This document shows positions 5,263-17,637 of a DNA stretch of 64,000 bases, piece by piece. The notes under the pieces were generated by a model that saw nothing but the letters and a program-made list of their open reading frames with translations, did no database searches and was not told where the DNA came from. Position 1 is the first letter of the stretch, and every line of letters begins with the position of its first letter. Source of the stretch: Cyclobacteriaceae bacterium (GTDB lineage: Bacteria; Bacteroidota; Bacteroidia; Cytophagales; Cyclobacteriaceae). The stretch spans positions 1-64,000 of the forward strand of contig PXCO01000071.1 of NCBI GenBank assembly GCA_003565295.1, in the 5' to 3' direction. The position numbers and the translations under genes were made by a program.

Positions 5263-5571
5263 AAAGGCAATTAAAAACAGATGTATTTCATGAAATTTGC
5301 ATACCTGTTAATCCCTGGCTTAAATTTTTACCAACCGATAAAATAGTATTCCCCTTTTCCCAAAAAAATTTTCGCCCTATATAAAAAGTATTTAGGTGTT
5401 TTCAATGAGTTTATTATTAATTTGAATTATTATTCTAATTTAATCGAATTGAAAGAATTTTAAGCGTAATTTTGTCTTTTTTATACATGTTTATTTTGCT
5501 TTACCTTAGCGAGCAGACAAGGTCACATTTTTGTACAACAAATTTATTTTATCAAAGTAATTCTATTTATC
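5263..5571. other. AT-rich intergenic leader, no gene seen
   Basis: About 300 bp of strongly AT-rich sequence with stops in all frames, leading into the beta-barrel gene at 5572. It probably carries that gene's promoter, but I could not find a clean TTG/TAnnTTTG pair and do not mark one. Confidence 0.5.
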
Positions 5572-6096
5572 ATGGTACCTAAAAATCTAAAACACATCTG
5601 TTTGATCGTATTATTCTTATTTCCTTTTTTCACTTCGGTGCAGGGACAGGCCTTCAAGGAAAAAGACCTGGTGTTACACGGTGGAATAGGTATTGGAAGC
5701 ACCTATACATTGGGTTTATTGGGCGGTTTTGGCCTCCCAGTTGGAGTGGGCGCAGAGTATGGCATCACTGATTTTGAAAGTGGAGCAATCGGGGTTGGTG
5801 GCGAACTTGGATATGTGAATTACAGTGGATTTTCCATTACGCACATAGGAGGCAGGGGCTCTTATCATTTCTCCGAGCTATTGGACATGGACCATGACAA
5901 GTTAGATCTCTATGGAGGCTTAGGCTTGTATTACCGAAGTTTTAATTTTAACGGTGCCGCTTTTGCCAGCAGTGGCATGGTGCTTTCCCTGCATGCAGGT
6001 GCAAGGTATTATTTTACCGAAAAATTCGGGGGTTATGGGGAAATTGGCAACAACTGGGCCTGGCTCAACCTAGGGGTGGTATATAAAATTAATTGA
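5572..6096 (+). CDS. Small outer-membrane beta-barrel protein of unknown function
   Basis: 174 residues: a signal peptide (hydrophobic core to about 20, then VQGQAF) followed by glycine-rich amphipathic strands such as LHGGIGIGSTY, GLPVGVGAEYG and GARYYFTEKFGGYGEIG. It ends in an aromatic/hydrophobic strand (NLGVVYKIN), the usual look of an 8-stranded OmpX/OmpW-like barrel. There are no catalytic motifs. It is monocistronic and followed by a likely terminator hairpin. Confidence 0.7.
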   Translation: MVPKNLKHICLIVLFLFPFFTSVQGQAFKEKDLVLHGGIGIGSTYTLGLLGGFGLPVGVGAEYGITDFESGAIGVGGELGYVNYSGFSITHIGGRGSYHFSELLDMDHDKLDLYGGLGLYYRSFNFNGAAFASSGMVLSLHAGARYYFTEKFGGYGEIGNNWAWLNLGVVYKIN

Positions 6097-14111: not shown

Positions 14112-15035
14112 CTACCTTAGCTCTACCACCTCCCTTCGAAACACTAAGAGGTCCTGCTTCATCAGCTCAATGTAAGCTGCAAATAAGTCCAACATAGATG
14201 CCCTATTCTGAAGCTGGTCCACAGAATATTGACCTCCATCCGACAGGTACAAATCCAGGTTTTCACGAATATTGAAAGTTTCCCAAGAATGCATCATGTT
14301 ATCACGAATGGTTTCCCCATGAATTTCCACTTTTTTTTCATTGATATAATACCATACGGATGGAGGGATGTATTCGCTCCAATCCAGGTCTTCTGCATAC
14401 ACATCCCTAAGTAAGTTTACCTCGTGATCCACCTCCACAGTATACGTTTTCACCTTATTGAGCACGTTCAACACAATTGTAGCCAGCGATGCACCAACCC
14501 CCATAAGCTGCCGGAAAGTATTGGCATTGGCCACCCAAATGACCACCACTCCGCTAAGGATGTTAGCGGAAGCGTCCGTTACAATCCCCCCTACAGTTCT
14601 TTGGTTGGAAATATTCCTTTCCTTTCGGTTAAGATACCAGGCCAATTGCTCTGTTTTATCCTCCTCACATCTTATTGCCGCATTGAGAGATGAGACCTCC
14701 AATTCAGCCAAATTGATTTTATTTAGGATTTCTTGATAGTGCATAAAATAAAGAAGCTGATCCTCCTCACTGTCCAATTTGACAATTACCCTAAGTGGAT
14801 CTTTGAGGTTCAATGCATTGGCAACCACCAGGGCTCTTTCACTAAAGATATCCTGCAAATCATCATCAAAGTCATCTATTTCAAAATCGTCGGGTTTGGT
14901 CGCCTTAATGCCTTCGATGAAAGTATAACATGCTCCTTGAAAATCGTCCACTTTTTCCTCCACTATCCTAGTACCCCTACACGAAAAACCAATAAAAATA
15001 AGAACAATTAATAAGATTTGACGAAGGGTTTTCAT
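14112..15035 (-). CDS. Lipoprotein of unknown function, paralogue B of the fluoride-riboswitch operon
   Basis: 307 residues. A signal sequence with lipobox (IFIGFSC) gives a lipidated Cys near 19. It is clearly paralogous to the gene just upstream: both share CEE-x-K-x-EQ-x-A, an N-x-RTV-x-x-IVT segment leading into a Gly/Ala/Val-rich hydrophobic stretch (about 150-195), SVWxYIN, and a C-terminal RANMLD...LMKQDL helix. The hydrophobic centre could insert into a membrane, and the ends look helical. I do not recognise a family. It is the third gene after the CLC antiporter, 14 bp behind paralogue A, so it is expected to be under the same fluoride riboswitch. Confidence 0.75.
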   Translation of the reverse strand: MKTLRQILLIVLIFIGFSCRGTRIVEEKVDDFQGACYTFIEGIKATKPDDFEIDDFDDDLQDIFSERALVVANALNLKDPLRVIVKLDSEEDQLLYFMHYQEILNKINLAELEVSSLNAAIRCEEDKTEQLAWYLNRKERNISNQRTVGGIVTDASANILSGVVVIWVANANTFRQLMGVGASLATIVLNVLNKVKTYTVEVDHEVNLLRDVYAEDLDWSEYIPPSVWYYINEKKVEIHGETIRDNMMHSWETFNIRENLDLYLSDGGQYSVDQLQNRASMLDLFAAYIELMKQDLLVFRREVVELR

Positions 15036-15049
15036 GTAACTTATGATGT

Positions 15050-15979
15050 TTAGTGCAAACTATAAAAAAATTTGGTAAAAAGCATCAGGTCTTGCTTCAT
15101 CAAATAAATTTGCGCCTCCAATTGATCCAACATATTGGCCCTGGTTTTCAATAATTCGGAATCATATTTGCCACCTTTTGAACGCAAAATTTCCAACGAG
15201 CTTACATCTACTTCAAAATCCTCCCATCGATCCACTAACCTATCTCTTTTTGAAACCGAGTCATCATTAACGTCAATATTGATGTATGCCCATACCGACT
15301 CAGGAAACACACGGTCTGAATTGTCTTTTAGGTAAATCATATCAATTACATTGAAAGGATGTTCAATTTCCACATATTTCTCCAGTCTAAGAATGGATAC
15401 ACCCAGCCAAACCTCTGCCAAACCTCCTACTATCCCAAGAACCTCCAACAAGGCTCCTGATGCTCCTGCCACAAGTGCCACTCCAGTCCCGGTGGAAATG
15501 GCTGCGCCTGTTACAATGGCTGCAACTGTTCGGTTGGTTTCTTTATTTTTGACTCTTTTATCGAGAAAAGTGGCAATTTGCTCAGCTTTCTCCTCCTCGC
15601 AATCTATGCCTCCGGTAATTGCAGAAATCTCGAAAGAGGCCATCTGAATGGCCCGCTCAATCTTCCTCCCCTCCTGATTGAGAAAATCCTCATCTGGTGA
15701 TTCTTTATTTATCTCCTTGATGTATCTGTGCATGGTGCCGCTTATCCCAAGGACTTTGGCCATTAGGAAAATTCTCTGGTCAGATATTTCGAGCTTCCAG
15801 CTTTCTGTCTCCTCATTCTCTTCAGAAATTTCGTAATTAATCTCGTTCATCATGACCAGCTCTTTGAGGCATTCTGCTTGGAAGGGCCTATCTAAGGACA
15901 CTCTAGCACGGTCGGTAGCACATCCGGCTACACCTATGAAAATGAAGGAAAAAGTCCAGAGTTTTATGTATTGCCTCAT
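15050..15979 (-). CDS. Lipoprotein of unknown function, paralogue A of the fluoride-riboswitch operon
   Basis: 309 residues with a lipobox FIGVAGC, so lipidation is predicted at Cys20. The middle (about 150-200) holds glycine-zipper-like hydrophobic segments (VAAIVTGAAISTGTGVALVAG and following) flanked by charged helical regions. The motifs CEEEKAEQIA, SVWAYIN and TRANMLDQLEAQIYLMKQDL are shared with the next gene, showing tandem duplication. Its start codon overlaps the stop of the CLC antiporter by 4 bp, a sign of translational coupling. No known family was recognised. A role in fluoride or envelope stress is inferred only from operon position. Confidence 0.78.
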   Translation of the reverse strand: MRQYIKLWTFSFIFIGVAGCATDRARVSLDRPFQAECLKELVMMNEINYEISEENEETESWKLEISDQRIFLMAKVLGISGTMHRYIKEINKESPDEDFLNQEGRKIERAIQMASFEISAITGGIDCEEEKAEQIATFLDKRVKNKETNRTVAAIVTGAAISTGTGVALVAGASGALLEVLGIVGGLAEVWLGVSILRLEKYVEIEHPFNVIDMIYLKDNSDRVFPESVWAYINIDVNDDSVSKRDRLVDRWEDFEVDVSSLEILRSKGGKYDSELLKTRANMLDQLEAQIYLMKQDLMLFTKFFYSLH

Positions 15980-17277
15980 TCTAGTTTCCCCAATTTTTTG
16001 CCTTTATTCCTAAGTTGCCTGTGATGTTTTGGCGAGCCGATGATTTGAGAATTATAGATTCCTGCATGACCACTAAAGAGATAGGCCACCACACAAGCCA
16101 GCCCTACATATACTCCGGAGGGTGCACCAAACAATTCTATTCCCATCAGGGTGCAGGCCAAGGGGGTATTGGTGGCACCGGCGAAGACCCCCACAAATCC
16201 CATACCTGCAAGCAAGGCAACCGGTAAGGGTATTACCCCACTCAATGCATTGCCCAAGGTGGCGCCTGTGTAAAACAAGGGTGTAACCTCCCCTCCTTTG
16301 AATCCGGCACCAAGGGTTAGTGAAGTCATCCCGATCTTAGCCAAAAAATCATACCAGGGCAAATCCTCACTAAAGGCATCCACAATAGTAGGGATACCAA
16401 GCCCAATATATTTTGTAGTGCCCATCGCAAAAACAATCAGTGCCACCAGGATTCCCCCGATCACAGGCCTGAGAGGGGGATATGGAATTTGGTTTGAAAA
16501 GAGCTGGCTCCAGAAGTGTGTAGCCTTGGCAAATAGCCGACCTGAAAGCCCAAAGCAAATCCCAGCGGGAATAATCCAGAATATATTGATTAAATCCAAT
16601 CCTGGCACAAATGGAATTTCATAATGGGTATGAGGTACTTCCCACAAAACTGCGCAGGCGTAATCCGCCACAAAGGCCGAAAGGAAGGCAGGCAAAATGG
16701 ATTCATACCTGATCCTTCCAATGATCAACCATTCCAAAGCAAATACCGCCCCGGCCAATGGTGTTCCAAATACAGATGCAAATCCTGAAGCCACACCAAT
16801 CGTAATTAAAATTTTCCTATCGTCTTTTTCCAACCTGAACCATTTGGTGAACTGATCCGCAATAGCGCCCCCCATTTGGACGGCCGTACCTTCTCTCCCT
16901 GCCGAACCTCCAAAAAGGTGGGTCATGACTGTACCGAATAGCACCAAAGGCGCCATTCTTAAAGGAATGACCTTCAGTGGATTGTAAAATTCCTCAAGCA
17001 ATTGGTTATTCCCCTTTACCACCGATTCTCCGAATTTATGGTATACCCAACCAATGATAAAACCCCCCAAAGGAAGCAGGGCAATGATCCAAAGATTGGA
17101 TTCCCGGTAATTGGTGGCCCATTTCAATGAAATTAAAAAGACCGCAGAAGCAGAACCTGCCAAAAGACCCACTACAGTGGATACAAGAAGCCACTTTAGG
17201 GTATACTGGACGTTGGGAAAAAACTCTTCTCTGAGAAATTTTTGAAATTGCAGAAACTCATTGATCCTCTTCAACAT
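15976..17277 (-). CDS. CLC-F type fluoride/proton antiporter
   Basis: 433 residues from the chosen start, a normal CLC length with about ten hydrophobic segments. The motif set is that of the fluoride-specific clade. The usual GSGIP is replaced by G89-N-N-Q-L-L. GREGP is replaced by G127-R-E129-G-T, keeping the gating glutamate. KGGEVTPLF (327-335) has the second glutamate described for CLC-F proteins. The family exports F- in exchange for H+ across the inner membrane. The ORF track starts at 17457, but the 60 extra codons lie over a fluoride riboswitch, so the ATG at 17277 (MLKRINEF) is the real start. Two lipoprotein genes follow with overlap. Confidence 0.93.
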   Translation of the reverse strand: MLKRINEFLQFQKFLREEFFPNVQYTLKWLLVSTVVGLLAGSASAVFLISLKWATNYRESNLWIIALLPLGGFIIGWVYHKFGESVVKGNNQLLEEFYNPLKVIPLRMAPLVLFGTVMTHLFGGSAGREGTAVQMGGAIADQFTKWFRLEKDDRKILITIGVASGFASVFGTPLAGAVFALEWLIIGRIRYESILPAFLSAFVADYACAVLWEVPHTHYEIPFVPGLDLINIFWIIPAGICFGLSGRLFAKATHFWSQLFSNQIPYPPLRPVIGGILVALIVFAMGTTKYIGLGIPTIVDAFSEDLPWYDFLAKIGMTSLTLGAGFKGGEVTPLFYTGATLGNALSGVIPLPVALLAGMGFVGVFAGATNTPLACTLMGIELFGAPSGVYVGLACVVAYLFSGHAGIYNSQIIGSPKHHRQLRNKGKKLGKLE

Positions 17278-17340
17278 AAAGTTTTCAAATTTTTGCACAA
17301 ATAGATCTTCAATCCAGATAAACCTAGATGCACAGTTGAA

Positions 17341-17428
17341 GTAGGAGTCATCAGCCACTAAAAAACGGCGGTTTAAAAACTTACCGAATGCACAACCTTC
17401 GGTAATTTTTGGGCGGTACCCCATCACC
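17341..17428 (-). ncRNA. Fluoride riboswitch (crcB motif)
   Basis: Read on the minus strand. P1 is GGUG (17428-17425) with CGCC. The pseudoknot half GGGGU in GAUGGGGUACC pairs with ACUCC in the 3' core CUGAUGACUCCUAC. The conserved AAAC is followed by GCCG, which pairs with UGGC immediately before UGAUG. An optional hairpin UUACCGAA/UUCGGUAA fills the variable loop. The layout matches the known crcB/fluoride aptamer (compare GAUGGCAU...CUGAUGAUGCCUAC in Pseudomonas). It ends 64 nt before the CLC-F start. I see no clear intrinsic terminator downstream, so the mode of control (translation or another mechanism) is open. Confidence 0.93.
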
Positions 17429-17436
17429 ATAGCGCA

Positions 17437-17444
17437 CAAATATA
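17437..17444 (-). promoter_or_regulatory. Promoter -7 box for the fluoride operon
   Basis: On the minus strand TATATTTG fits the Bacteroidota -7 consensus TAnnTTTG. A weak -33-like TTC lies about 22 bp upstream. Transcription starting about 7 nt downstream would begin almost exactly at the 5' edge of the riboswitch, which supports both calls. Confidence 0.6.
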
Positions 17445-17637
17445 CAACTTGAATCAACTATTTCCCGAAGTCGGAACCTTTTTTAAGCATTTAATGAATT
17501 TTTATCTGATCCTACCTACGTATCCTTATTGTTGGGATTTATAAATTTCCTGTTGCATTTTCACCTATGGAATACTTTTTGAGCTGGGAGAAGTTATCCA
17601 GTTTCGGAAAAAAATTAAGGGGTTTGAACTATCACAA

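Follow-up and report, generated by a model that had tools for sequence, protein, structure and literature searches.

The window (the whole stretch of DNA that was analysed, 64,000 nucleotides) carries on its minus strand a gene predicted to encode a CLC-F type fluoride/proton antiporter, here called clcF, with a fluoride riboswitch aptamer in its 5' leader, 57 nt ahead of the start codon. Two lipoprotein genes follow directly after it. The features discussed below are listed in the order in which they would be transcribed, each with its basis.

17437..17444, minus strand: Bacteroidota-type -7 promoter box, TATATTTG (sequence; box in relatives)
17335..17437, minus strand: aptamer of the fluoride (crcB) riboswitch family RF01734 (cmscan score 44.2 bits; gathering score 34)
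17412..17428, minus strand: stem P1, GGUG 17428-17425 with CGCC 17415-17412, the 5' pseudoknot strand in its loop (cmscan alignment)
17418..17422, minus strand: 5' pseudoknot strand, GGGGU (sequence and cmscan alignment)
17381..17405, minus strand: extra 8-bp hairpin (UUACCGAA/UUCGGUAA; 17405-17398 with 17388-17381) in the insert that follows P1 and precedes AACCGCC (cmscan insertion, fold, relatives)
17354..17369, minus strand: stem P3, GCCG 17369-17366 with UGGC 17357-17354 (cmscan alignment)
17344..17348, minus strand: 3' pseudoknot strand, ACUCC, common to the aptamer and the predicted start-codon helix (cmscan alignment, duplex calculation)
17335..17341, minus strand: aptamer tail, CUUCAAC, predicted 5' arm of the start-codon helix, pairing with 17275-17269 (arm conserved in 27 Cyclobacteriaceae loci)
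17276..17334, minus strand: linker between both arms, 59 nt (variable and unconserved in relatives)
17265..17275, minus strand: predicted 3' arm, GUUGAAG-AGGA, made of the last base of AUG and codons 2-5 (duplex energy; synonymous identity)
15976..17277, minus strand: clcF, 433 aa, ATG at 17277 (6d0j match, PF00654, relatives)
15050-15979 and 14112-15035, minus strand: two tandem paralogous lipoprotein genes

The clcF protein, read from the ATG at 17277, matched the Pfam family Voltage_CLC (PF00654). Its best match in the PDB was 6d0j (E 4.7e-65), the CLC-F of Enterococcus casseliflavus and the closest solved structure, whereas the best entries for CLC-ec1 (chloride CLCs) reached about 1e-11. 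Alignment with 6d0j showed that the external gating glutamate (Glu-ex, in GREGT) and the GGEVTPLF segment are retained in clcF, the two proteins being alike in GREG and in GGEVT (E318, V319, T320). The roles of Glu318 and Thr320 in CLC-F have been described (PMC12035849, PMC11077948). At the position of Met79, however, clcF has Asn (KGNN, compared with QGMN in 6d0j), which is neither Met nor the chloride-coordinating Ser. By its E values clcF is closer to CLC-F than to the chloride CLCs, and fluoride export is predicted for it.

For the two lipoproteins no Pfam family passed its cut-off, the first (15050-15979) giving a weak sub-threshold match to SpoIIE_N. Homologs occurred in 17 of 98 relatives, and the invariant residues of the family include C37, C127, H207, N210, W230, W252, G269 and G270. 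Homologs adjoin genes for MgtE (L177, L178), Nqr subunits (L181, L188), an Ion_trans channel (L179) and NhaA (L186), and FeoB is flanked by a copy on each side in L176. Another member lies beside FluC under a fluoride riboswitch (L182), and in genome G011 (L012/L175, about 5425-6002) a riboswitch stands before a small PepSY-like gene, divergent from a member of this family. Going by neighbourhood only, it might be guessed that these lipoproteins are accessory to ion transporters.

A fluoride riboswitch upstream of the CLC gene had been proposed by the sequence-only reading, and a search of the whole 64-kb window with Infernal against all families of Rfam 15 agreed. RF01734 (Fluoride) was matched at 17437-17335 on the minus strand with 44.2 bits (E 5.6e-9, full model 1-64), above the gathering score of 34 bits, and this was the single Rfam match above gathering score in the window. 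A search of the entire genome found no second copy of RF01734. The location first given for the aptamer was right, while its coordinates (17341-17444) were off by about 6 nt and are corrected to 17335-17437. The parts listed for it (P1, pseudoknot, joint, P3 and 3' segment) are all present in the cmscan alignment, which contains the features of RF01734 membership, namely P1, P3 and the pseudoknot of GGGGU (17422-17418) with ACUCC (17348-17344, one G.U wobble), as well as the AACC joint and CUGAUGACUCCUAC. An insertion of about 35 nt separates P1 from the AACCGCC segment; about ten relatives have a different insert at the place of the extra hairpin.

The -7 box TATATTTG (17444-17437), also noticed beforehand, has its 3' end at the start of the Rfam match, and a TAnnTTT(G/A) box is equally placed, about 9-10 nt 5' of P1, in 17 of 19 loci, the window included. 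At the window locus no convincing -33 element was found at the proper spacing from this box. The order of aptamer and CLC gene is repeated in about 27 Cyclobacteriaceae loci. A chance or relic aptamer was ruled out by the covariance model score, the genome search and the RF01734 matches at the loci of relatives. By family membership the window aptamer is a genuine fluoride riboswitch, which presumably binds fluoride.

The view that such riboswitches are rare in Bacteroidota did not hold, since RF01734 scored above gathering in 46 of 396 sampled genomes and in 20 of 98 relatives. Some matches have neither CLC nor FluC directly downstream (L012, L021, L022, L065, L076, L078, L109-L111, L116), those at L021 and L022 falling below the gathering score. 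By eye, the product of the next ORF looks like a PAP2-type membrane phosphatase at L110/L111, a cation antiporter at L078 and long unknown proteins at L076 and L116, and it is possible that the ORFs in these positions are further fluoride-responsive genes. At L112 (genome G331) the first gene, about 150 nt past the aptamer, looks by eye like an enolase gene and is followed by FluC. Enolase is a classic target of fluoride.

An ORF caller would add 60 codons to clcF, as an open frame extends in the window from TTG 17457. A start at 17277 instead, as the sequence-only reading had advised, is upheld by the family: of 27 Cyclobacteriaceae loci, 26 have an in-frame stop between the aptamer 5' end and the conserved ATG, only the window lacking one, and in the nearest relative, Pleomorphovibrio marinus (89% identity), this stop is 9 nt upstream of the ATG. 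Translation through the aptamer was ruled out on these grounds. Because 26 of the 27 loci are closed upstream of the ATG, the start at 17457 is regarded as an accident of the open frame, and the start of clcF, judged by comparison with relatives, is 17277.

The aptamer ends in a 14-nt stretch, ACUCCUACUUCAAC (17348-17335), that is complementary to GUUGAAG-AGGA, which consists of the G of AUG and codons 2-5 (UUG AAG AGG AUC), the pairing comprising 7 bp, a bulged A and 4 bp. The calculated energy of this start-codon duplex was -14.4 kcal/mol; when the downstream region was shuffled 300 times with its dinucleotides preserved, one shuffle did as well. The helix is included in the minimum-energy (MFE) fold of the leader. 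The 4-bp part takes the UCC of the 3' pseudoknot strand, so that the pseudoknot and the full start-codon helix are mutually exclusive. A helix over the AUG that is incompatible with the ligand-bound aptamer is thus predicted for this leader. It is not followed by a U-run (UCAAUGAGUUU stands there), by which an intrinsic terminator in the window was ruled out.

Vienna folding leaves the pseudoknot outside its model. With both pseudoknot strands kept unpaired in the calculation, the predicted openness of positions +0..+11 rose on average across loci from 0.18 to 0.39; for the window the values were 0.15 before and 0.51 after. For the AUG triplet itself the mean predicted openness barely shifted (0.47 to 0.52). 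The calculation supports a release of codons 1-4, not of the AUG triplet itself.

The CLC gene was found in 25 genomes (of Pleomorphovibrio, Litoribacter, Lunatibacter, Lunatimonas, Anditalea, Rhodonellum, Belliella, Cyclobacterium, Pontibacter, Nitritalea and Cesiribacter), and RF01734 was above gathering score at 19 of the 20 of those CLC loci that were scanned. Across 27 Cyclobacteriaceae loci, the window among them, the arms read CUUCAAC on the 5' side (CUCUAAC in L003) and GUUG(A/G)AG on the 3' side, joined by a linker of 27-91 nt without conserved sequence. The exact two-arm pattern with a linker of 26-55 nt was present in 17 of 198 genomes of the family; the reversed control gave 0. Where codons 2-4 (UUG, AAG/GAG, AGG/CAG) belong to the coding sequence (24 loci), their synonymous identity was 100%, whereas the later codons (n=414) had a median of 0.34, with only two at 1.0 and no other run of three.

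In the Belliella-group loci (L008/L092, L100, L107) the ATG has shifted downstream and the helix partner is now non-coding; two of the three partners contain an in-frame stop. These loci retain GUUGGAGU(A/G)GG and pair better, with 11 uninterrupted pairs. Since the partner is kept while non-coding, its conservation argues for selection on the RNA rather than on the peptide. L003 carries a compensatory change in the helix, from U-A to C-G. Within the family, the covariation of the 7-bp helix alone was not significant (210 of 500 shuffles reached the pair count) because its arms scarcely vary; the case for the helix rests on synonymous-site conservation, non-coding persistence and the cross-locus permutation described below. 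No SD motif was found before the ATG in 24 of the 27 loci, and in the other three the motif is the (non-coding) partner arm itself.

Across Bacteroidota, 46 of 55 distinct CLC loci, as well as 11 of 20 FluC loci, had a downstream partner of the switching strand better than 95% of shuffles. This partner lies over the AUG in the CLC loci of Cyclobacteriaceae, ends directly at the AUG in the CLC groups L057, L058, L061, L063, L082 and L114, and ends about 5 nt before it in L072, L074, L077, L083 and L117. At FluC of one genus (L055, L153, L154, L156) and of genome G301 (L120/L157) it runs over the AUG into the coding sequence; no further FluC cases came from the family of G301, where the riboswitch is in one member only. 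No significant partner was found at the CLC loci L009, L015, L062, L066, L103 and L104, which lie outside the family Cyclobacteriaceae. For the permutation, 29 non-redundant Bacteroidota loci with dissimilar switching strands were chosen to remove relatedness, and their partners were permuted. The mean energy with the own partner was -10.64, compared with -7.46 (sd 0.41) for permuted partners, and none of 100,000 permutations was as low. In swapped controls outside Cyclobacteriaceae the own median was -11.9 against -7.1.

From these comparisons the fluoride riboswitch is probably a translational ON switch for the CLC-F exporter, in which the start-codon helix is set against the pseudoknot. At low fluoride, ACUCCUACUUCAAC (the 3' pseudoknot strand and the tail) would leave the aptamer and pair with GUUGAAGAGGA, and the resulting helix would hide codons 2-5 together with the last base of the start codon, blocking the start of the ribosome. 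In the presence of fluoride the pseudoknot GGGGU/ACUCC would be held and the 4-bp part and the junction lost. Only the 7-bp tail helix could then persist, and it would be expected to open, freeing the start codon. An SD site would play no part in the switch. Fluoride binding, switching and the ON direction are what we infer here, the first and the last from family membership and from the role of the exporter. In transcriptional fluoride riboswitches that have no fluoride bound, the pseudoknot is known to be displaced by a downstream strand (PMC11077080). In Flavobacterium johnsoniae initiation depends on RNA structure between -20 and +20 (PMC6847099), and Bacteroidia ribosomes, including those in the work on F. 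johnsoniae, fail to recognise SD (PMC9976891); an SD-free platform fits such ribosomes. Rho-dependent or decay effects may also be involved.

It is unlikely that the riboswitch acts instead on transcription, with the same hairpin as an attenuator that is either intrinsic or exposes a Rho site when translation is blocked. In most studied fluoride riboswitches the pseudoknot strand is indeed also part of a terminator at the end of the element (PMC2864571, PMC11077080), and terminator-like loci with a GGAGUUUUUU-type end were found in Bacteroidota, both at FluC (L125, L118, L079) and at L116, where the downstream gene is neither CLC nor FluC. The window, however, has no U-run behind the helix, which lies inside the coding sequence, and the conserved codons and the placement of the helix on the AUG fit translation. 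Considerably less likely still is that the aptamer binds fluoride but matches the start codon only incidentally, MLKR being kept for the protein and the CUUCAAC tail for the aptamer. Although the near absence of covariation in the 7-bp helix within the family speaks for this, the freezing of codons 2-4 at synonymous sites is not shared by the rest of the gene, and the partner persists as non-coding sequence in three Belliella-group loci. Moreover, other RF01734 members have no conserved tail, and there tail and partner change together. It is scarcely credible that translation runs along the long ORF from 17457 and that the RNA motif arose by chance or is a relic, for although no stop interrupts the frame across the aptamer in the window genome, which has an in-frame AUG at 17430, the family stops and the 44-bit score contradict it, and the -7 box lies downstream of TTG 17457, so that a transcript from this box would lack that codon.

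Beyond the CLC-F switch of Cyclobacteriaceae, the fluoride riboswitches of Bacteroidota seem, on balance, to form an SD-independent translational class. In this class the pseudoknot strand would pair with the start codon itself or with a short stretch just 5' of it, and the pairing would have evolved repeatedly into coding sequence (CLC-F in Cyclobacteriaceae, FluC in at least one other genus, that of L055/L153/L154/L156, and in G301), so that the regulated genes have their first codons frozen.

Fluoride binding and riboswitch-controlled CLCs reportedly go back to the original reports of Baker 2012 and Stockbridge 2012. The pairing of aptamer and gene is textbook and already known: CLC-F type genes under fluoride riboswitches have been reviewed (PMC7266159), and the RF01734 (crcB) motif, with the same aptamer sequence and fold, stands before fluoride exporter genes, its 3' pseudoknot strand being the shared switching strand, as in the window (PMC2864571, PMC11077080). 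The window differs from these known systems in that the predicted partner of this strand is the start codon with codons 2-5, where the known ones would have a terminator or an SD site, and in the additional hairpin inserted after P1. P. syringae and B. pseudomallei use SD sites, whereas the window leader has none. The translational fluoride riboswitches of these two hosts (translational controls in PMC13273304) have the same aptamer and presumed control of translation. A precedent for sequestration of a start codon by a riboswitch is the TPP riboswitch of E. coli thiC (PMC5234074), but it has a different aptamer and the opposite logic, being an OFF switch in which the ligand promotes a stem that includes the SD. 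In the open-access literature no report was found of a fluoride riboswitch with a start-codon or first-codon platform, or of one adapted to SD-less initiation, and a platform on the start codon that does without SD looks like a novel form of this switch.

Bacteroidota ribosomes largely ignore SD, so the textbook hiding of an SD site by a translational riboswitch is unavailable to these bacteria. The window locus and its relatives offer a concrete alternative, in which the start codon itself would be hidden and the protein's first codons would bear the constraint of a regulatory RNA.
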